DNA of 64,000 bases from Thiohalobacter sp. GTDB taxonomy: Bacteria; Pseudomonadota; Gammaproteobacteria; Thiohalobacterales; Thiohalobacteraceae. Position numbers and translations under genes: made by a program. Positions 44,933 through 58,769 of this stretch are shown piece by piece (positions within the stretch are counted from its first letter, which is position 1; the number at the start of each line of letters is the position of its first letter). Below the pieces are notes generated by a model. It searched no databases. It saw only the letters and a list, made by a program, of their open reading frames with translations, and was not told the origin of the DNA. The stretch lies in NCBI RefSeq assembly GCF_027000115.1, contig NZ_JALTON010000002.1, forward strand, positions 26,932-90,931, read 5' to 3'.

Positions 44933-45190
44933 ATGCGCAACCGTTTCCGTCAACTGGGTCAGGGAATGACGGAGTACATCATCATCGTCGCCCTCATCGC
45001 CATTGCCGCCATCGCCGTCTACGGCCTGTTCGGCGATACCATCCGCGGCCAGATGGGCGCCATGACGCAGGAACTGGCGGGTCAAGACGGCTCCTCCAGC
45101 CTCAAGAAAGCGGATGATGCCGGCAAGGCTGCGGCCGGCGCGGCCTCGGACAAGAAGACGCTGAGCGACTATACCGGTCAGTCCAACTGA
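44933..45190 (+). CDS. flp: Flp/Tad-type major pilin
   Basis: 85 aa. A short basic leader (MRNRFRQLGQG) is followed by the prepilin core MTEYIIIVALIAIAAIAVYG, with Gly before Met as cleavage site and Glu at +3 (counting Met as +1). The Ala/Lys/Asp-rich C-terminal half would be the exposed part. AGGAG lies 8 bp before the ATG. It is first of the Tad operon and the likely main fibre subunit. Confidence 0.88.
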   Translation: MRNRFRQLGQGMTEYIIIVALIAIAAIAVYGLFGDTIRGQMGAMTQELAGQDGSSSLKKADDAGKAAAGAASDKKTLSDYTGQSN

Positions 45191-47003: not shown

Positions 47004-47938
47004 CCCGCGACCGACGACAACAAACCGGACAGGCCATGACCGAGTTCGTGATCTCGGCTGCCTTCGTGCTGGTGCCGCTGTTCCTGATCGTGCCGGCGGT
47101 GGGCAAGTACATCGACATGAAACACGCGGCAGTGGCCTCGGCCCGCTACAGCACCTGGGAATACACCGCGCACTATGCCCGTGCCGGTGACCAGTCTTCC
47201 GGCTTCAGCGCCGTCAGCCGTGCCCAGCGACCGGTCAAGCCCTTGCGCGATGTGGCACTGGAGGCCGAACGCCGCCACTATGGCAACAGCGCGCTGCCGC
47301 TGGACACCCATGCCGACCGTGGCGGCCTGGCCCAGTCCGAGCTGCGACCGCTGTGGCGCTATCACGATGGCACACCCATGTACCTGGCCGCCGCCAACCG
47401 CCCCGTCTCCGCCGTCGGCCCCGGACGCACGCCGGACCCCACCGGCATCTTCAGCGGCGTGCTCACCGCCTTCAACAAGCTGGCCCGCGCCCTTGCCGGC
47501 GCACTCGGGGCGCTGGGCGTGGACGGCGGCTTCGATGCCGTCAACGACCGGGGCCGCTTCGGTGTGGAAGTGGCGATGCGCGCAGAGAACGCCCCGCGCT
47601 GGACACCGCTGAAGAAGGCCAACCGCGCCCCGCTGTTCCTGCAGGACCTGAACCTAGTCATGACCGCGCGCGGCGCCCTGCTCACCGATGGCTGGGCCGC
47701 GGGCGGCGTACAGCATGCCAACCGCCAGTCGCGGGGACTGGTGGCCGGCGCCCTGCTGGACCCCATCCTCAATCGCTGGATCCCGATCCAGTCCCTGGCC
47801 TCGACCATCCTGCTCAGCCCCGAACTTGGGCCGAACAATCTGCAGTTCGGCATCATGCCCACCGACGATGTGCCGCCGGGCAAGCTGTCGCCCGATACCC
47901 GCTCGGTGTCCTGTCCGGGAGGCTACTGTGAATACTGA
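47000..47938 (+). CDS. TadE-like pseudopilin
   Basis: 312 aa. The N-terminus GQAMTEFVISAAFVLVPLFL followed by a hydrophobic helix is the TadE form (prepilin-like GQ-x-M-x-E). The C-terminal ~280 residues are larger than normal TadE (about 150-200 aa) and not recognised. It overlaps its neighbours by 4 bp and 11 bp. Confidence 0.78.
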   Translation: MTRDRRQQTGQAMTEFVISAAFVLVPLFLIVPAVGKYIDMKHAAVASARYSTWEYTAHYARAGDQSSGFSAVSRAQRPVKPLRDVALEAERRHYGNSALPLDTHADRGGLAQSELRPLWRYHDGTPMYLAAANRPVSAVGPGRTPDPTGIFSGVLTAFNKLARALAGALGALGVDGGFDAVNDRGRFGVEVAMRAENAPRWTPLKKANRAPLFLQDLNLVMTARGALLTDGWAAGGVQHANRQSRGLVAGALLDPILNRWIPIQSLASTILLSPELGPNNLQFGIMPTDDVPPGKLSPDTRSVSCPGGYCEY

Positions 47939-48629
47939 GCCGCGACGCCTGCCCCTGACCCTGCTGCTGGCCCTCGGCGGCCTCGCGCTGGCGGCCCAGG
48001 CGCGCGACGATTTCCCGCCCCCGCCCGACAGCCGGGTGGAACTGGTGGCCGGGGAGACCACGGCGCTGGGCATGCAGCTGGCCATCCGCCGCTTCCGCAG
48101 TGACCTCAAGGCCGAACAGGTAATCGATTTCTACCGCAAGCTCTGGGGCAAAGACGCCGCGGTCAGTGAAGCGCCGCCCTGGCGTATGGTCGGCACCGTC
48201 GACGATGGCCACTATCTCAATGTCCAGGTCCGGGACGAGGCCGACGGCAGCGAGGGCCTGCTCAGCAAAAGCGACTTGCCCGAGCGCCTCAGCAGCGGCC
48301 GCTACCAGCCCGCGCCACGCCACACGGACTTCCCGCGCATGAGCGGCAGCGATCTCATATCGATCAGCAACAGCCGCGATGCGGGCAAGACCGGCCGCCT
48401 GGTGCAACTGCAGAACGACTTCTCCGTGGCCAGCAATGCCCGCTTCTATCGCCGCCACTACGAGGGCCAGGGCTACACCACGGTGATGGACGAGGCGGTG
48501 GCGCCACGCGAGCAGGGCCGCGTGCTCTACTTCCAGCGCGGACCGCATAACGTGACCGTTACCATCAACCGGGTCGAGGACCGAACTTCCGTCATCGCCA
48601 GCGACGTCAGCGAGGGATTCCTGCCATGA
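47928..48629 (+). CDS. Secreted unknown protein in Tad operon
   Basis: 233 aa beginning with GTG at 47928 (GGGAGG before it), overlapping the TadE-like gene by 11 bp. A signal peptide (LPLTLLLALGGLALAAQA) is clear. The mature protein (VIDFYRKLWGK, VTVTINRVEDRTSVIASDVS) has no family I recognise. Tight overlaps on both sides make it part of the Tad operon. Confidence 0.72.
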   Translation: MNTEPRRLPLTLLLALGGLALAAQARDDFPPPPDSRVELVAGETTALGMQLAIRRFRSDLKAEQVIDFYRKLWGKDAAVSEAPPWRMVGTVDDGHYLNVQVRDEADGSEGLLSKSDLPERLSSGRYQPAPRHTDFPRMSGSDLISISNSRDAGKTGRLVQLQNDFSVASNARFYRRHYEGQGYTTVMDEAVAPREQGRVLYFQRGPHNVTVTINRVEDRTSVIASDVSEGFLP

Positions 48630-49018
48630 ACCGCAACGCAGGCCGCCAGGGCGGCCAGTCAATGGTCGAGTACACCGTCATCCTGGCCGCGCTCACGGCC
48701 GCCCTGCTGGCGGCGGGGCCGGGCTCGGTGGAGGAACTGCGCCAGGGCGTGGTCGACAAGCAGCGCGGCTACAGCTATGCCGTCTCGCTGTCGGAGATCC
48801 CCGAGTCGGGCGATCTGCAGGAGATTGCGGCCTACTACAAGCGTCTGGGCAAGTATCCGGCGTTGCAGCCGCAGCTCGCCGCCGGGGGGCAGAAGCTGAG
48901 CCAGTTCGTCAGCCAGCTGGAACAGGCCGACAAGCTGTTGTCGCAATTCGATCCCGCCAATGCCGGCAAGCCGCTGCAGCACCTGCCCGGCTGGCCTCCG
49001 CCACTGCCCGGGCTGTAG
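48626..49018 (+). CDS. Small pilin-like protein
   Basis: 130 aa. A prepilin-like N-terminus GGQSMVEYTVILAALTAALL (Gly-Gln before Met, Glu at +3) is followed by a mostly helical C-terminal part rich in Gln and Leu and ending in Pro-rich LPGWPPPLPGL. It overlaps the previous gene by 4 bp. It may be a minor pilin. Confidence 0.78.
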   Translation: MNRNAGRQGGQSMVEYTVILAALTAALLAAGPGSVEELRQGVVDKQRGYSYAVSLSEIPESGDLQEIAAYYKRLGKYPALQPQLAAGGQKLSQFVSQLEQADKLLSQFDPANAGKPLQHLPGWPPPLPGL

Positions 49019-49067: not shown

Positions 49068-50888
49068 GTGGACAAGAAGAACCTCAAGCTGCTGCTCATC
49101 GCCCTGGGCCTCGGCGCACTGGCCGCCCTGCTCTCCTTCCTCTATCTCAAGGCCCGCGAGGCCGAGCTGCGTGCCCAGCTCACGCCACACGAGGAAATGG
49201 TCGAGGTCGTCGTCGCCTCGCGTGACCTGGTCAAGGGCGACAAGCTCAACGCCAGCAATCTCGCCGTGCGCAGTGTCCCGGCCAAGTATGTCGATGACAA
49301 TGCCGTACGCCCGAGCCAGTTCGAGGAAATCGACGGCCAGGTGCTGAACCAGAACCTGGCCTCGGGACGGCCGCTGATGCGCAGTTATGTGGCGCGCGAG
49401 TTTCCCCTGGACTTCTCCGATACCATTCCGCTCAAGCGCCGTGCCATGACCATACAGGTCGACGAGGTGAACTCGGTGTCCGGCTTCGTCCGTCCGGGTG
49501 ACCGCATCGACCTGTTCGCCCTGCTGCCGCCGGGTGCCGTGGACGAGAAGGACGACAGTCACCAGGTCATGCCCCTGCTCGAAAACGTGGAGGTGCTGGC
49601 CACCGGCCGCGACGCCGCCCGCGACTACGAGGAAAAGGTGCGCCTGCTGCGGGGCGGGGTTGCCGCCCAGCCGGATGACAGTTACACCACCCTCACCCTC
49701 AACGTGACCCCGCGCGAGGCCGCGGTGCTGGCGACCGCGCGCGAGAAGGGTGACCTGCTGGCCGTGCTGCGCAATCGCAAGGACGACAGCGGTTCCGGCT
49801 TCACCCGCGTCACGCCTGCGGATCTGCGTTCCAACGCCGAACGCCTCGCCCAGGCCGCGGCGGTGCGTGCCAGCACGGAACAGCTCGGCGAGGTGCGTCG
49901 CGACGCCGACGGCAACATCATCACGGCCGACGGGCGAAAGATCGCCGGCGACAAGCTGGTGGTGGCCGAGGATGGCACCCTGATGACCCGCGATGGCGTG
50001 GTCCTGTCCGGCCGCGGCCTGCAGGTCAACGACAAGGGCCAGCTGATCACGCCGGACGGCAAGGTGGTCGACCCCGACCGGGTCCGTGTCGCCGCCGACG
50101 GCAGCCTGATCACCGCCGACGGCACGGTGGTGGCGGGTGCCCCGGGCACCCGCACCAGTGGCGTAACCGTCAACCCCGACGGCACCGTCACCACCGCCGA
50201 CGGCCGGGTACTGACCGGCGTCGAGCTCAACAAGGACGGCAAGATCGTCCTGCCCGACGGCACCGTGGTCGATCCCAGGGACGTGGTCGTGCGTGCCGAC
50301 GGCACCGTGCTCACCCGCGACGGCAAGGTGCTGGCGGGCGTGGGCACTACCCAGGCAGCCGGCACCCTGACCCGCAATGCCGACGGCTCGGTGACCACGG
50401 CCGACGGCACCGTGCTGGCCGGGGCCAGACTCGACAAGGACGGCAAGCTGGTACTGGCCGACGGCACCGTGGTCGACCCGAAGGACGTGGTCATCCATCC
50501 CGACGGCACCGTGACCACCCGTGACGGCAAGGTGCTCAAGGGCATCCAGGCCGGCGAGGCGGCCGGCAGCCTGCGCGCCGATGCCGACGGCACCATCCGC
50601 ACTGCCTCGGGTGCCATCATCGAGGGCGCCACCCTGCGCGAGGACGGCAAGCTGGTGCTCCCCGACGGCACCGTGGTCGATCCGAAGGACGTGATCGTCC
50701 ACCCCGACGGCAGCGTGACCACCCGTGACGGCAAGGTGCTCAAGGGGCTGACGGCACGCAATGTGCGCCGTGCCGGTGTCGCGCCGAAGATCACCGCCAC
50801 CACCCCGTTGTACGAAGTGGACTACATCGTCGGCGGAGACAGCGACAATGGCGTCGCCAACGTCCGAAAGATTCCGGTGATGCCCTGA
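49068..50888 (+). CDS. cpaB: CpaB/RcpC-like protein with tandem DG-repeat C-terminus
   Basis: 606 aa, about twice the usual CpaB length. Residues 1-270 are normal CpaB: a membrane helix (LLLIALGLGALAALLSFLYL), a SAF domain (MVEVVVASRDLVKGDKLNAS), and IPLKRRAMTIQVDEVNSVSG with FVRPGDRIDL. From about 278 to 565 the protein consists of short repeats of the type DGTVTTxDGKVLxG, with a 68-residue super-period. A CpaB-like tail (TTPLYEVDYIVGGDSDN) follows. CpaB helps the secretin during pilus assembly. GTG at 49068 is the likely start. Confidence 0.9.
   Translation: MDKKNLKLLLIALGLGALAALLSFLYLKAREAELRAQLTPHEEMVEVVVASRDLVKGDKLNASNLAVRSVPAKYVDDNAVRPSQFEEIDGQVLNQNLASGRPLMRSYVAREFPLDFSDTIPLKRRAMTIQVDEVNSVSGFVRPGDRIDLFALLPPGAVDEKDDSHQVMPLLENVEVLATGRDAARDYEEKVRLLRGGVAAQPDDSYTTLTLNVTPREAAVLATAREKGDLLAVLRNRKDDSGSGFTRVTPADLRSNAERLAQAAAVRASTEQLGEVRRDADGNIITADGRKIAGDKLVVAEDGTLMTRDGVVLSGRGLQVNDKGQLITPDGKVVDPDRVRVAADGSLITADGTVVAGAPGTRTSGVTVNPDGTVTTADGRVLTGVELNKDGKIVLPDGTVVDPRDVVVRADGTVLTRDGKVLAGVGTTQAAGTLTRNADGSVTTADGTVLAGARLDKDGKLVLADGTVVDPKDVVIHPDGTVTTRDGKVLKGIQAGEAAGSLRADADGTIRTASGAIIEGATLREDGKLVLPDGTVVDPKDVIVHPDGSVTTRDGKVLKGLTARNVRRAGVAPKITATTPLYEVDYIVGGDSDNGVANVRKIPVMP
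49899..50760 (+). repeat. Tandem repeats inside cpaB (204-bp period)
   Basis: Near-identical GACGGCACCGTGGTCGA blocks start at 50256, 50460 and 50664, exactly 204 bp (68 codons) apart. A diverged relative, GACGGCAAGGTGGTCGA, occurs at 50055, 201 bp before the first. Inside each period the codons for DG recur every 8-18 residues. Sequence is most alike in the last copies, implying recent duplication at the 3' end. Confidence 0.9.
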
Positions 50889-50928
50889 TCCGGTCGTGGA
50901 ACAAGAAATCGAAAAACGGGAAAGACAG

Positions 50929-52386
50929 ATGAAAAACACCATCAACCGAAGCCTGCTGGGCATCCTGCTTGTGCTGTTCATGGCCTGGGCGCTGCAAGCC
51001 CAGGCTGACAGCCTGCTGCGACTCTATGTCGGCGACATGCAGGTCCTGCCGCTGGGCGAGATCAAGCGCGTCGCCGTCGGCAACGGCGGCGTGCTGAGCA
51101 CTTCCATCCTCGAGGACGGCCAGTTGCTGGTGCTGGCAGAGAAGGAGGGCGAGACCGAAATGCGGGTCTGGCTCACCGACGGCAGCGAGCGGGTATACAA
51201 GATCAGCATCGCCAAGCAGGACACGCTGCAGGCCTCTTCCGAGGCACGCTCCGCCCTGCGCAACCTGCCTGGCGTGACCCTGCGCCGGGTAGGCAACAAC
51301 ATCGTGGTCGAGGGCAAGGTAGACGGCGACGGCAAGGCACTGATCGAGAAGATCAACGCCACCTACAAGCTGATCGATCTCACGGTGCAGAACGACCGCA
51401 TCCCGCTGAAGGAGATCCTGGCCAACATCCCGGGCATCCAGGTGCGCGAGGTCGGCAAGTTCTCGGTGGTGGAGGGACAGGCCGACGAGCCCACCGCCAA
51501 GCTGATCGAATCCGTGATCAAGAACTTCCCCAACGTGGTGAACCTGGTGCGCACCGACCTGGTGAAGCCCGAGCGCATGGTGTACATGAAGGTACAGATC
51601 ACCGAGTTCAACACCAGCCGGCTGGAGAATCTCGGCATCGCCTGGGAAACCAGCTTCCCCGGGCCCGCGGCCGGCGTCGCCGTCGACTTCACCCGCAAGG
51701 GCGACCTCAGCGCGCTTGCAGGCAGCGTGCTGTCGGGCGTGACCAGCCAGACGGCCGCCACATCGGCCATCGGCTACTTCGGCCTCGCCACCCAGATCTC
51801 GTCGACCATCAACCTGGCCATCTCCAACGGCGATGCCCTGCTGCTCGCCTCCCCCACCCTGAGCGCAGCCAGTGGTGGCAAGGCCGAGTTTCTCTCCGGC
51901 GGCGAGGTGCCCGTGCCGGTGCCCGGGCCCGATCTCACCACCACCATCGAGTACAAGCAGTTCGGCATCATCCTCAACATCGAGCCGACCGCCGACGACA
52001 AGGGCAACGTGCGCGCCAAGGTCGAAACCGAGGTCAGCAGCATCGACCAGTCCACTGCGGTGGACAACACGCCCGGCTTCCGCACCCGGCGCACCAGCGC
52101 CGAGGTCAGTCTCAAGCAGGGGCAGACCCTGGTCATCAGCGGCCTGGTCAACCGAGAGGTGGCCGAGGATGTCTCCAAGCTGGCCGGACTGGGTGATCTG
52201 CCCATCCTGGGTGCGCTGTTCCGCTCCAGCAACTTCCGCAACGGCCACAGCGATCTGGTCATCTTCATCACACCCTATGTGTATGACGCCGATTCCCCGG
52301 TCAACAGGGCCCAGCTCGAGCGCGCGGACCAGTTGCGCGCCCGTTTCCTGAAGAACATCGAGAAGAACGGCGACATACTGGACTGA
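50929..52386 (+). CDS. cpaC: Tad pilus secretin CpaC/RcpA
   Basis: 485 aa. A signal peptide (SLLGILLVLFMAWALQAQA) precedes the pilus-secretin N domain (LYVGDMQVLPLGEIKRVAVG), BON-like segments, and the secretin domain (QISSTINLAISNGDALLLAS, GKAEFLSGGEVPVPVPG, LKQGQTLVISGLVNREVAED). It forms the outer-membrane pore for the pilus. The ATG at 50929 has GGGAAAGACAG upstream; the ORF opens at 50896 but lacks a signal peptide there. Confidence 0.95.
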   Translation: MKNTINRSLLGILLVLFMAWALQAQADSLLRLYVGDMQVLPLGEIKRVAVGNGGVLSTSILEDGQLLVLAEKEGETEMRVWLTDGSERVYKISIAKQDTLQASSEARSALRNLPGVTLRRVGNNIVVEGKVDGDGKALIEKINATYKLIDLTVQNDRIPLKEILANIPGIQVREVGKFSVVEGQADEPTAKLIESVIKNFPNVVNLVRTDLVKPERMVYMKVQITEFNTSRLENLGIAWETSFPGPAAGVAVDFTRKGDLSALAGSVLSGVTSQTAATSAIGYFGLATQISSTINLAISNGDALLLASPTLSAASGGKAEFLSGGEVPVPVPGPDLTTTIEYKQFGIILNIEPTADDKGNVRAKVETEVSSIDQSTAVDNTPGFRTRRTSAEVSLKQGQTLVISGLVNREVAEDVSKLAGLGDLPILGALFRSSNFRNGHSDLVIFITPYVYDADSPVNRAQLERADQLRARFLKNIEKNGDILD

Positions 52387-52390
52387 GAAC

Positions 52391-54100
52391 ATGTTTGACA
52401 TCATCGTCATCACGGACAAGGGCAAGACCACCAAGCGGGTGCGCTGCATGATCAAGCAGTGCACCATCGGCAAGTCCCGGGACAACCTCATCCAGATCCG
52501 CGGCTGGCGCATCGCCCCGGTTCACTGCCGGATCGAAATGACCGACAAGGGCATCTACATCGAGGACACCAGCGAGGGCATCGGAACCCAGGTCAACGGC
52601 GAGAAGGTCCAGTACTACGGGCCGCTGCGCGGTGCCGACATCATCAGCATAGGTGCCTACGAATTCCGCATCGGCGCGGTGTCGACCGACGATGCCGAGG
52701 AGGTCGTCAGCAACTACCAGGAACTGCCGGAGAGCAGCGACTGGACAGTGGAAACCTTCTTCGGACCCGCCGCCGCAGCCGGCAGCGGCGAGGACGGTGC
52801 CGATGCCCGGCCGAGCGAGGAGGAAATCAACCGCCAGCGCACGGCCATGTGGCGCAACCGGCTTCACCAGGACGTGCTGCGCATGATGGACCTGCGTCGT
52901 ACCGACGTGGCCGACATGGACGATGAGGAGCTGCGCAACAGCGTCGAGGCCATGATCGACGAGGTCCTTGGTGCCCATGCCGCGGAACTGCCCGACTACA
53001 TCGACCGCGACCGACTGAAGCGGGAGGTGCTCAACGAGGCCATCGGCCTCGGGCCACTGGAGGAGTTGCTCGCGGACGAGGCCGTCACCGAGATCATGGT
53101 CAACGCCCATGACGATATCTTCGTGGAACGCGAGGGCAAGCTGACCCGTTCCGAGGTCACCTTCTCCAGCAATGCCGCTGTCATGTCCGCCATCGAACGC
53201 ATCGTCACCCCGCTGGGCCGGCGCATTGACGAGAGTTCGCCCATGGTCGATGCCCGACTCAAGGACGGCTCGCGCGTCAACGCCATCATCCCGCCGCTGG
53301 CACTGAAGGGCCCCACGATCACCATCCGCAAGTTCTCCAAGAAGAAGCTGGAGGACAGCGATCTGATCCGCTTCGGCTCCATCAACGAGCCCATGGTCAG
53401 GCTGCTGCGCACGGCCGTCGAGCAGCGCTGCAACATCATCATCTCGGGCGGTACCGGCTCGGGCAAGACCACCCTGCTCAATGTGCTGTCCAACTTCATT
53501 CCGCATTCCGAGCGCGTGATCACCGTCGAGGATGCCGCCGAACTGCAGCTGGCGCAGCCGCATCTGGTGTCGCTGGAATCACGACCGCCCAACCTCGAGG
53601 GAAAGGGCGCCATCACCATCCGCGACCTGGTCAAGAACTGCCTGCGCATGCGCCCCGACCGCATCGTGGTTGGCGAGTGTCGTGGCGGCGAGGCATTGGA
53701 CATGCTGCAGGCGATGAACACCGGCCATGACGGCTCGCTGACCACTGTGCATGCCAACTCGCCACGCGACGTCATCTCCCGCCTTGAGGTGATGGTCATG
53801 ATGTCCGGCATGGAGCTGCCGGTGCGCGCCATCCGCGAGCAGGTGGCCTCGGCGGTAGACCTGATCGTGCAGCAGACGCGCTTCTCGGATGGCTCTCGCC
53901 GCGTCACCCACATCACCGAGGTTACGGGCGTGGAAGGCGACATCGTTCAGCTCAACGACATCTTCCTGTTCAAGCAGGAAGGCTTCGACAGCGAGGGCCG
54001 GCTGCTCGGACATTTCGAGGCCACCGGCTCGGTACCGCACTTCTACCAGGACCTGCGCGAGCGTGGCATCCCGGTGGACATGAGCATCTTCGCGTCATGA
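52391..54100 (+). CDS. tadA: FHA domain fused to TadA/CpaF pilus ATPase
   Basis: 569 aa. Residues 1-100 form an N-terminal FHA domain (CTIGKSRDNLIQIRGW, PVHCRIEM, IYIEDTSEGIGTQVNGEKV). Residues about 150-560 are a type II/IV secretion ATPase: Walker A GGTGSGKT at 353-360, TVEDAAELQL, Walker B-like RPDRIVVGECRGGEALDMLQ, and TGHDGSLTTVHANS. It powers Flp pilus assembly. The FHA core is atypical: IGR is IGK and the Ser of SxxH is Ala (APVH), so phosphothreonine binding is uncertain. It overlaps tadB by 4 bp. Confidence 0.95.
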   Translation: MFDIIVITDKGKTTKRVRCMIKQCTIGKSRDNLIQIRGWRIAPVHCRIEMTDKGIYIEDTSEGIGTQVNGEKVQYYGPLRGADIISIGAYEFRIGAVSTDDAEEVVSNYQELPESSDWTVETFFGPAAAAGSGEDGADARPSEEEINRQRTAMWRNRLHQDVLRMMDLRRTDVADMDDEELRNSVEAMIDEVLGAHAAELPDYIDRDRLKREVLNEAIGLGPLEELLADEAVTEIMVNAHDDIFVEREGKLTRSEVTFSSNAAVMSAIERIVTPLGRRIDESSPMVDARLKDGSRVNAIIPPLALKGPTITIRKFSKKKLEDSDLIRFGSINEPMVRLLRTAVEQRCNIIISGGTGSGKTTLLNVLSNFIPHSERVITVEDAAELQLAQPHLVSLESRPPNLEGKGAITIRDLVKNCLRMRPDRIVVGECRGGEALDMLQAMNTGHDGSLTTVHANSPRDVISRLEVMVMMSGMELPVRAIREQVASAVDLIVQQTRFSDGSRRVTHITEVTGVEGDIVQLNDIFLFKQEGFDSEGRLLGHFEATGSVPHFYQDLRERGIPVDMSIFAS

Positions 54101-54966
54101 GCCTGGATCCCGCCGCCCTCCTCCTGCTGCTGTCGCCGCTGCTGTTCTTCACCAGCGTGTTTGCGCTGGGCCTGGTCGCCGCGCGCAAGGGTGAGGAAGT
54201 CTGGGACGACTACGAATCGGTATTCAAGGAGACCGCGCGGACCAATCTCGAGGACATGTTCCTGTTCATCGATCCACAGCAGCTGTTCCTGGTCAACGTG
54301 GTCGCCATCCTGGTACTGCCCGCGCTCACCCTGCTGGTCACCGGCGACCTGCTGATCGCGCTGGCGGTCATGGCACTGGTCATGTTCGTGCCCTTCTATG
54401 TCTACCGGGCCATGCGCCAGCACCGCCTGCGGACCTTCGAGAAACAGCTCCCCGATGCACTCAGCCTGATCTCCAGCGCGCTGAATGCGGGCGTCAGCCT
54501 GAACATCGCCCTGGAGAACCTGATCCGCGAACAACCCGCGCCCCTGTCCCAGGAATTCATGCTGTTCATGCGTGAACAGCGACTCGGCGTCGACTTCGAC
54601 ACCTCGCTCCGAAACATGGAGCGGCGCCTGCCGCTGGACGACTTCCGCATGTTCACCTCGGCCCTGCGCATCGCCCGCGAAGTCGGCGGCAACCTGGGCG
54701 AGATCCTGGAGCGGCTGGCGGATACCCTGCGCCGCAAGGCGGTCATGGAGGGCAAGATCGACAGTCTCACCGCCCAGGGCCGCATGCAGGGCCTGGTCAT
54801 GACCGGCCTGCCGGTCCTGCTGGGCCTGCTGCTGTTCTTCCTGGAACCCGACGCCATGCGGCTGATGTTCACTACCCCGGCCGGCTGGGCCACGCTGGCA
54901 GTGATCGTGGTCATGGAGGTACTCGGCTATGTCTTCATACGCAAGATCACGCGAATCGATGTCTAG
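54097..54966 (+). CDS. tadB: Tad inner-membrane platform protein TadB
   Basis: 289 aa type II secretion F-domain protein. N-terminal hydrophobic helices (LLLLSPLLFFTSVFALGLVA and LVNVVAILVLPALTLLVTGD), cytoplasmic GspF-like core (QLPDALSLISSALNAGVSLN, REVGGNLGEILERLADTLR), and C-terminal helices. Located between tadA and tadC as usual. Length typical (about 280-320 aa). Confidence 0.95.
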   Translation: MSLDPAALLLLLSPLLFFTSVFALGLVAARKGEEVWDDYESVFKETARTNLEDMFLFIDPQQLFLVNVVAILVLPALTLLVTGDLLIALAVMALVMFVPFYVYRAMRQHRLRTFEKQLPDALSLISSALNAGVSLNIALENLIREQPAPLSQEFMLFMREQRLGVDFDTSLRNMERRLPLDDFRMFTSALRIAREVGGNLGEILERLADTLRRKAVMEGKIDSLTAQGRMQGLVMTGLPVLLGLLLFFLEPDAMRLMFTTPAGWATLAVIVVMEVLGYVFIRKITRIDV

Positions 54967-55134: not shown

Positions 55135-56007
55135 ATGGAGCTGTTGATCTATCTCAGTGCCCTGGCTGCCGGCGGCAGTATCCTGCTCATGGTGGTCTTC
55201 GTCGATCGCATGACACCCGAGGTCGACGCCACCGACCGTGCCTGGATGGACCCCTTGCCGCCCATGCTGCGGATCATCTGGCCGCTGGTCCGGCTGGTCG
55301 CGGACACCGTTACCCCGCTGTACAGCAATCGCTACCTCGACAGCGTGGAGGAACACCTGCAAAAGACGGGGGCATCCTATCTCCTCACCGGCGAGGAATT
55401 CGTCGCGCTGCGCATCGTCTCCGCGATTATCTGCCTGCTGCTGGCACTGATACTGGTCGCCTCGTTGCATGCCGGCCAGCCGCTGCTGATCCTGCTGCTG
55501 GCCACCGCAGGGGGCTATTTCTTCCCGCTGGTATGGCTCAAGGACACCCGCCAGCGGCGCGAGCGCGATGTCATTCGCGCCCTGCCCGTTTATCTGGATT
55601 TCATCACCATGGCGGTCGAGGCCGGACTGAACCTGACCGGTGCCCTGCAGCAGGCCATGCAGAAGGCCCCGGAAGGCGCACTGCGCAACGAGTTCGCCAC
55701 CGTGCTGCGCGACGTGCGTTCCGGCGTCAAGCGCGCCGACGCCCTGCGGCGCATGGCGGACCGCCTCGACATCCCCGATGTCACCAGCTTCGTCAATGCC
55801 GTCATCCAGGCCGAGCGCATGGGCTCCAGCATGGCGGCGGTACTGCGGGTGCAGGCGGAGCAGCGCCGGTCCGAGCGCTTCCAGCGTGCGGAGAAACAGG
55901 CCATGCAGGCGCCGGTAAAGCTGATCTTCCCGCTGATCGTGTTCATCTTTCCCGTGACCTTCATCGTGCTCGGCTTCCCGATCGCGATGAAGTTCCTGCA
56001 CCAGTGA
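55135..56007 (+). CDS. tadC: Tad inner-membrane platform protein TadC
   Basis: 290 aa. It has the GspF-like core typical of TadC (LPVYLDFITMAVEAGLNLTG, ALQQAMQKAP, VTSFVNAVIQAERMGSSMAA) and flanking membrane helices, including the C-terminal LIFPLIVFIFPVTFIVLGFP. It follows tadB after a 168-bp gap and overlaps the DUF192 gene by 4 bp (GTGA). Confidence 0.95.
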   Translation: MELLIYLSALAAGGSILLMVVFVDRMTPEVDATDRAWMDPLPPMLRIIWPLVRLVADTVTPLYSNRYLDSVEEHLQKTGASYLLTGEEFVALRIVSAIICLLLALILVASLHAGQPLLILLLATAGGYFFPLVWLKDTRQRRERDVIRALPVYLDFITMAVEAGLNLTGALQQAMQKAPEGALRNEFATVLRDVRSGVKRADALRRMADRLDIPDVTSFVNAVIQAERMGSSMAAVLRVQAEQRRSERFQRAEKQAMQAPVKLIFPLIVFIFPVTFIVLGFPIAMKFLHQ

Positions 56008-57535: not shown

Positions 57536-57753
57536 ACAAAGACTCTGCGAAGCGGACCCCGTGGATTGTCGCGGGGAACAGCCGTCAGGGCTGGAAGGTC
57601 TCGATCTCCAGCGTGCCACCCTGGCGCAGCCGGTAACGCGCGCCGAGTTCCGTGCCCGTCAGTGGCAGGAATCCACCCGCCGCATGGCCCGCATATTGCG
57701 CCAGGGGCTGCGGATGATGGCGGATTTGCAGCCGGACTCGGGCCGGGCTGCGT

Positions 57754-58016
57754 GCCTCCGGCGCTGGTCGAACACCGTTTGAAGTCGGAGGTTCGAACCC
57801 TTCCGGGCGCATGAAACGACAAACCCGCCTAGGGGGCGGGTCTGTCGTTCCATTTGGCGCGCCCGGAAGGATTAGCGGCCTGCGGCCGATCTGCGCGCCT
57901 CCGGCGCTGGTCGAACACCGTTTGAAGTCGGAGGTTCGAACCCTTCCGGGCGCATGAAACGACAAACCCGCCTAGGGGGCGGGTCTGTCGTTCCATTTGG
58001 CGCGCCCGGAAGGATT
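57754..58016. repeat. Tandem duplication downstream of tRNA-Arg(ACG), period 143 bp
   Basis: Copy 1 (57754-57873) and copy 2 (57897-58016) are nearly identical over 120 bp and offset by 143 bp. Each contains an inverted partial copy of the tRNA 3' half (57784-57810 and 57927-57953), a long hairpin, and the first ~15 bp of the tRNA 3' end in the same orientation as the tRNA. Copy 2 runs into the real tRNA-Arg. So the tRNA end was duplicated with its trailer. Confidence 0.9.
57958..57992 (-). terminator. Hairpin behind tRNA-Arg(ACG), possible terminator
   Basis: A 15-bp stem with one internal mismatch (AACGACA-AACCCGCC with GGGCGGGT-CTGTCGTT on the plus strand) and a 5-base loop. On the minus strand it follows the tRNA after 5 bases and ends with only about three T residues, so it is a weak intrinsic terminator. 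An identical hairpin lies at 57815-57849. Confidence 0.6.
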
Positions 58017-58074
58017 CGAACCTCCGACCGCCTGGTTCGTAGCCAGGTACTCTATCCAGCTGAGCTACGGGCGC
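57998..58074 (-). tRNA. tRNA-Arg (anticodon ACG)
   Basis: 77 nt with encoded CCA. Acceptor stem GCGCCCG/CGGGCGC. D arm contains AGCTCAGCTGGATAGAGT. Anticodon stem CCTGG/CCAGG surrounds loop CTACGAA, giving ACG (inosine-modified, decodes CGN). T loop TTCGAAT. It is minus strand, like the tRNA-Ser upstream of it. Confidence 0.96.
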
Positions 58075-58163: not shown

Positions 58164-58657
58164 GCGAGGGATTGATTCGGGGCGCCTCCGCTGCGCTGCG
58201 GCGTCGTCTCGCTCGCCGCGCTCGCTCGGCTCGAACCGAAGGCTTCTCATCGGGCCTCTCTCTCCGCCATATAAAAAGGGGCCCCGGAGACTCCGATTAC
58301 CCTCTTCCGCAAACCGGGCCGCCTTGGCGAGGGATTGATTCGGCGCTGCGCGCCTCACCCCTTCGGGGCGCCTCCGCTGCGCTGCGGCGTCGTCTCGCTC
58401 GCTGCGCTCGCTCGGCTCGAACCGAAGGCTTCTCATCGGGCCGCTCTCTCCGCCATATAAAAAGGGGCCCCGGAGACTCCGATTACCCTCTTCCGCAAAC
58501 CGGGCCGCCTTGGCGAGGGATTGATTCGGCGCTGCGCGCCTCACCCCTTCAGGGCGCCTCCGCTGCGCTGCGGCGTCGTCTCGCTCGCTGCGCTCGCTCG
58601 GCTCGAACCGAAGGCTTCTCATCGGGCCTCTCTCTCCGCCATATAAAAAGGGGGCCC
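58164..58657. repeat. Three tandem repeats downstream of tRNA-Ser(GCT), period 186 bp
   Basis: Copies start with GCGAGGGATTGATTCGG at 58164, 58327 and 58513. Copies 2 and 3 are 186 bp apart; copy 1 is 163 bp because of a 23-bp deletion after that block. Each holds GGCTTCTCAT (58241, 58427, 58613) and then a plus-strand version of the tRNA-Ser 3' end plus trailer (CTCTCTCCGCCATATAAAAA). Copy 3 ends where it meets the true tRNA-Ser trailer and forms a perfect palindrome with it. Confidence 0.9.
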
Positions 58658-58676
58658 GCTGGGCCCCCTTTTTATA
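58641..58676 (-). terminator. tRNA-Ser(GCT) terminator within a 65-bp palindrome
   Basis: Inverted repeat 58627-58657 and 58661-58691, 31 bp perfect, with a 3-base loop (GCT). On the minus strand the GC-rich core (GGGGGCCC/GGGCCCCC) is followed by a run of five T residues, as in an intrinsic terminator; by symmetry it can also act on the plus strand. The outer part of the palindrome overlaps the tRNA acceptor 3' end. Confidence 0.85.
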
Positions 58677-58769
58677 TGGCGGAGAGAGAGGGATTCGAAC
58701 CCTCGATGGAGCTTTTAACCCCATACTCCCTTAGCAGGGGAGCGCCTTCAGCCGCTCGGCCATCTCTCC
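58677..58769 (-). tRNA. tRNA-Ser (anticodon GCT)
   Basis: 93 nt with encoded CCA. Acceptor stem GGAGAGA/TCTCTCC. Anticodon stem CTCCC/GGGAG encloses loop CTGCTAA, giving GCT (decodes AGC/AGU). The long variable arm expected for tRNA-Ser is present. T loop TTCGAAT. It sits just downstream of csrA, the usual csrA-serX order of gammaproteobacteria. Confidence 0.97.

Follow-up and report, generated by a model that had tools for sequence, protein, structure and literature searches.

How pilus machines bridge the inner and the outer membrane across envelopes of varied thickness is an open question, and it is posed here by a Tad pilus locus of Thiohalobacter sp. (assembly GCF_027000115.1, contig NZ_JALTON010000002.1), lying in a stretch of 64,000 nucleotides that is referred to below as the window. 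Its cpaB gene (49068..50888, on the forward strand, as are all the genes described here) encodes a CpaB/RcpC protein of 606 aa in which a long array of Asp-Gly (DG) repeats stands between the conserved core and the C-terminus. In the most economical reading, which we consider probable on balance, the DG array is a linker that has grown into a spacer of variable length, set between the predicted CpaB ring and a hairpin that would dock on the secretin.

The frame opens with a GTG and stops at 50888, and in the profile scan its product reaches 149.2 bits against TIGR03177 (curated cut-off 71), as befits a member of the CpaB family. An N-terminal helix (residues 1-38; 49068..49181; helix 3-38 in the AlphaFold model) is likely transmembrane, its membrane role being taken from the work on RcpC (PMC12307814). 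It is followed, in the domain order of CpaB/RcpC, by D1, a SAF domain (PF08666, residues 46-107; 49203..49388), and by D2, the RcpC domain and predicted ring domain (PF16976, 88.2 bits, residues 116-235; 49413..49772). The fold of this core matches that of the RcpC core from Pseudomonas aeruginosa (Protein Data Bank, PDB, entry 9gzr). A helix predicted by AlphaFold at residues 250-273 (49815..49886) corresponds, by position against 9gzr, to the opening part of the RcpC linker L3, and the array occupies residues 271-562 (49878..50753). Behind it come a low-confidence link (residues 563-582; 50754..50813; predicted local distance difference test, pLDDT, below 50 at 572-583) and the conserved C-terminal motif EVDYIVGGDSDNGVANVRKIPV (50814..50876), a predicted hairpin with strands at 583-593 and 596-603. 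This putative hairpin is read from the sequence pattern and from the two predicted strands of low pLDDT. The initial annotation had described about 290 residues of repeats with a 68-residue super-period between the CpaB core and a short tail, and this description holds, the core being intact and the tail conserved. Its figure of about 260-330 aa for a usual CpaB is also about right; plain, array-free frames in the class-wide sample described below mostly measure ~230-415 aa between stops; outside this range lie one frame of 130 aa and two (532 and 603) that are long only upstream.

The array is repetitive in both protein and DNA and comprises ~4.3 units, the first of which has diverged. Shifted against itself, it agrees best at an offset of 68 residues (42% identity) and next at 136 (26%), whereas 500 shuffled versions gave 19% at most at their best offset, and the CpaB core gave 13%. 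Tandem Repeats Finder (TRF) reports a 204-bp period at 50176-50746 with 2.8 copies and a score of 633. The last copies had been described as nearly identical in DNA, which overstates the case: when the 204-bp units are aligned at the 68-residue spacing, identity is 63% between units 2 and 3 and 73% between units 3 and 4, units 4 and 5 reach 92% over their first 60 nt only, and unit 1 is less than 40% identical to every other unit. Several of the array glycines are invariant in an alignment of 58 relatives.

Modelled by AlphaFold together with the tail alone, the array is predicted to be regular and beta-rich (mean pLDDT 82.6; predicted template modelling score, pTM, 0.62), its 10-residue blocks lying at 84-97 except for one at 70; in the model of the whole protein the blocks lie at 67-92. 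With regard to the beta-solenoid proposed there, the regular beta structure is supported by the prediction; the solenoid itself is not, as none of the solved structures compared with the array had a fold that matched over it.

Systematic comparison of genomes and databases was used to place the array among its relatives. Within a class-wide sample of 369 genomes, 53 hold PF16976; the CpaB was read in 45 of these, and for the other eight, frame length was the sole criterion (268-331 aa, with one of 130 aa that is perhaps cut). Repeats between D2 and the tail were found in 12 genomes of the class, the window's included (G000, G196, G300, G249, G342, G130, G254, G364, G129, G018, G335 and G045), and the linker of G342 is filled by a different short repeat. 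In G045 (locus L056), the conserved tail is preceded by a short stretch of DG repeats together with the collagen-like sequence GAPGAPGAPG. Long frames also occur in G267 and G282, yet these are plain CpaBs with an extra upstream frame. Two of the 11 genomes of the window's own family carry the array type, and in the second of them (G003) a 754-aa frame stops at the contig end inside the array. A phylum-wide profile list gave PF16976 in at least 166 of 398 genomes, a figure that has no bearing on rarity outside the class.

In the protein searches, which scored only the ~8000 candidates sharing most words with the query, 118 of the best 120 of 271 matches to the whole protein, the window protein among them, contain five or more DGx[VIL] motifs; the array is thus no isolated oddity. 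When the array alone served as query, 119 of the best 120 of 194 proteins carried the CpaB domain, the exception being a protein designated P0122. Among the matches listed, the array is almost restricted to CpaB; one array CpaB among them is labelled as coming from a Shewanella psychromarinicola metagenome-assembled genome (MAG).

The length of the array varies widely. Between the D2 anchor and the tail, 113 of the best 120 relatives have 184-569 aa (the remaining seven could not be anchored), and array CpaBs as a group have 131-569 residues, as against 33-47 residues in the five plain CpaBs of the class that were measured, six more having given no value. Relatives differ by whole pieces of array, in line with the suggestion that copy number may vary: a single clean block of 68 aa separates the window protein from P0004 and P0006, P0069 and P0083 differ in length by 61 aa at 89% identity, and P0103 and P0113 show, to two decimals, complete identity apart from an 85-aa indel, although for metagenome sequences in this comparison a collapse of repeats in assembly is possible. 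The threefold range of array length, and its change between otherwise identical proteins, weaken the proposal of a ruler in the strict sense.

The exception P0122 is a metagenome protein of 520 aa with a signal-like N-terminus (judged by eye), in which the array is joined to secretin N-domains in place of the CpaB core. It matches the pilus secretin N-domain PF13629 at 59.1 bits, its N-region shares 86 of 206 residues with residues 14-217 of the window CpaC, and its array and tail share 151 of 282 residues with the CpaB P0012 in an open frame; the profile scan gave no secretin-barrel match. P0122 thus joins the array-plus-tail module to the domain reported as the binding partner of the hairpin. 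One tandem duplication that began within cpaB and ended within cpaC, each near its middle, would, we infer, yield a fusion of this type in one step.

Taken with what is known of RcpC, these observations suggest how the array may work. D2 of P. aeruginosa RcpC forms a 12-fold ring, and its C-terminal hairpin, which is needed for binding, is modelled as completing the sheet of the secretin N-domain (PMC12307814). By analogy, the window protein would form the same ring, and its tail would be the same hairpin, docking on the secretin likewise. The short linker before the C-terminal motif would then have been expanded into the ~290-residue DG array, which may act as a beta-rich spacer that keeps the hairpin, with its likely docking on the secretin, at a distance from the predicted ring of CpaB, and which may set or tolerate the reach between the inner-membrane ring and the outer-membrane secretin pore. 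Should the protein assemble from twelve subunits, as RcpC does, its twelve arrays would add a further tier in the periplasm around the path of the pilus. A bolder and rather doubtful version makes of this tier an adjustable conduit, in which twelve DG arrays stand as a palisade between ring and secretin, the height being tuned by repeat gain and loss, and in which P0122, with its N-domain socket, array and hairpin plug, is a natural adaptor adding one tier in series.

Several observations weigh against the array as a spacer. For the tail and the link preceding it, the pLDDT is only 36-66, and the docking of the tail on the secretin is putative. The P. aeruginosa hairpin is not resolved in 9gzr, so that its equation with the tail depends on position and a short pattern, and the search for this pattern failed to find it in 12 of 35 plain rows. 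The model of RcpC places the N-domain of the secretin in contact with D2 as well (PMC12307814), and an array inserted in such an arrangement would loop outwards and not span. P0122 is a single metagenome protein for which no second case was found, a match spanning both of its halves being absent from all 369 class genomes (at most four candidates scored per genome). Plain CpaBs without DG repeats can also have long ends, up to 159 residues past the core profile. Finally, the tolerance of length speaks against a rigid ruler of fixed length, and the array lengths of relatives follow no general 68-aa ladder: among 1458 pairs with core identity of at least 60% and a length difference above 20, the difference comes within 5 of a multiple of 68 in 291 and equally close to a half-way value in 260.

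The gene neighbourhood is that of a Tad system, as expected of CpaB/RcpC. Directly downstream of cpaB lie the secretin gene cpaC (50896..52386; PF13629 N-domain and PF00263 by profile scan), tadA for an ATPase with an N-terminal FHA domain (52391..54100; profile scans and locus comparison), and tadB (54097..54966) and tadC (55135..56007), named from gene order and with similar genes at the same place in other loci. Upstream are an Flp pilin gene (44933..45190; weak PF04964, 20.8 bits against a cut-off of 32.2), a gene for a 233-aa protein between TadE and Flp2 (47928..48629; no Pfam match; similar genes in array and plain loci) and a second Flp-like pilin gene, Flp2 (48626..49018; recognised by locus comparison, no Pfam match). 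By similarity to the window genes, array loci run Flp1, TadG, TadE, ~230-aa protein, Flp2, CpaB, CpaC, FHA-TadA, TadB and TadC, although some end early at contig or fetched ends or lack single matches. CpaC and TadA follow CpaB in 10 of the 11 fetched array loci, the eleventh ending at a contig end, and many plain loci that belong to this TadA lineage share the order. In a TadA tree of 28 rows, 10 of the 11 array rows fall in one clade (support 98/95), the position of the eleventh (L047, G249) being unresolved.

The C-terminal tail of Flp2 measures 59-222 aa in the 10 long-array loci where Flp2 was read (75 in the window) and 5 and 15 aa in two short-array loci; in 10 of 12 plain sister loci the Flp2-like frame stops within ~6 residues (eight of these 10 read by eye), the other two of the 12 yielding no Flp2-like frame. 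This is an association and not proof of joint function, because the loci share descent. As observations aside, the CpaB frame of locus L051 (G364, contig 218) ends at a contig end with a terminal stretch that looks like translated sequencing adapter, and beyond the Tad genes of the window near-identical tandem repeats at 57741-58016 (143 bp x1.9 at 97%) and 58176-58658 (186 bp x2.6 at 98%) adjoin tRNA-Arg (57998-58074) and tRNA-Ser (58677-58769).

The Flp2 tails bear on another explanation, that the array is a collar looping outwards to bind a periplasmic partner, be it peptidoglycan, a minor pilin such as the tailed Flp2, or the pilus itself. The hairpin would in that case dock at D2, as it does in RcpC. 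Such a collar would accommodate the contacts that the secretin N-domain makes with the hairpin and with D2 in the RcpC model, and the tolerance of array length fits it as well; however, the Pfam and TIGR library scans recognised no binding domain in the array, P0122 keeps the order N-domain, array and hairpin that suits a link in series, and the Flp2 association may reflect no more than the common TadA clade. We consider a collar unlikely.

Less likely again is a tolerated tandem expansion in a loose linker, in which the array serves merely to tether the hairpin and its length drifts. The threefold range, the indels between nearly identical proteins and the other fillers of G045 and G342 would fit such drift, but a regular fold predicted with good confidence, glycines kept invariant and an array and tail preserved in frame in P0122 speak against it. 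A Ca2+-binding repeat that stiffens CpaB, as also proposed in the initial annotation, is very improbable. Asp-Gly turns are indeed many, but they also favour plain beta-turns; the window's array contains neither the RTX-like pattern GG.G.D nor the EF-hand-like pattern D.D.[DN]G, and in a set of 139 arrays 45% of the glycines are preceded by Asp and 10% by Asn.

With reference to known proteins, DG-rich motifs of two Pfam models match weakly inside the array, namely the flagellar hook/rod D1 domain of FlgE/F/G (PF22692; 47.8 bits on the whole protein, cut-off 27) and DUF3659 (PF12396; 21.1 bits, below the gathering cut-off of 24.8, although precomputed tables list it for many relatives). No single stretch of the array passes alone, and the neighbourhood is Tad and not flagellar. 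The plain CpaBs of loci L022, L025 and L040 share the core domains and end in comparable tails (VQFIVGGL, VEFIIGGI and IEYIIGGS), and in contrast to the window protein have 41-47 aa from D2 anchor to tail and no array. No description of such CpaB arrays was found in the open-access literature by title and start of abstract, a scope outside which lie most subscription papers and all preprints; the Tad CpaB itself is known, and its array-expanded, length-variable form is apparently new within that literature.

RcpC remains the closest parallel. It shares with the window CpaB the likely transmembrane helix, SAF-type D1, D2, a helix-containing linker and, by prediction, the position of the C-terminal hairpin (PDB 9gzr; PMC12307814), and it works with a secretin, as the window cpaB likewise lies beside a secretin gene. 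RcpC has 303 aa and a short L3, whereas the window protein has its array of ~290 aa at the place of L3, between D2 and the predicted hairpin; the RcpC study ascribes a mismatch of 21 versus 24 nm to the linkers (PMC12307814). The natural series of CpaBs, with linkers from ~40 to more than 500 residues, together with the P0122 hybrid, makes the bridging question testable by comparison of relatives and by removal of the array. According to a study of Caulobacter crescentus, the means of linking the two membranes differ among Tad systems, and in that species CpaI, a separate protein, is proposed as the periplasmic link between the CpaB hairpin and the secretin (PMC13170226). P0122 could be a link of the CpaI type, though one carrying an array and a hairpin of its own. 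The genome profile search found one PF13629 match in the window genome, in the secretin itself, and since there is no second match there, a longer reach of CpaB would be another way of linking the membranes.
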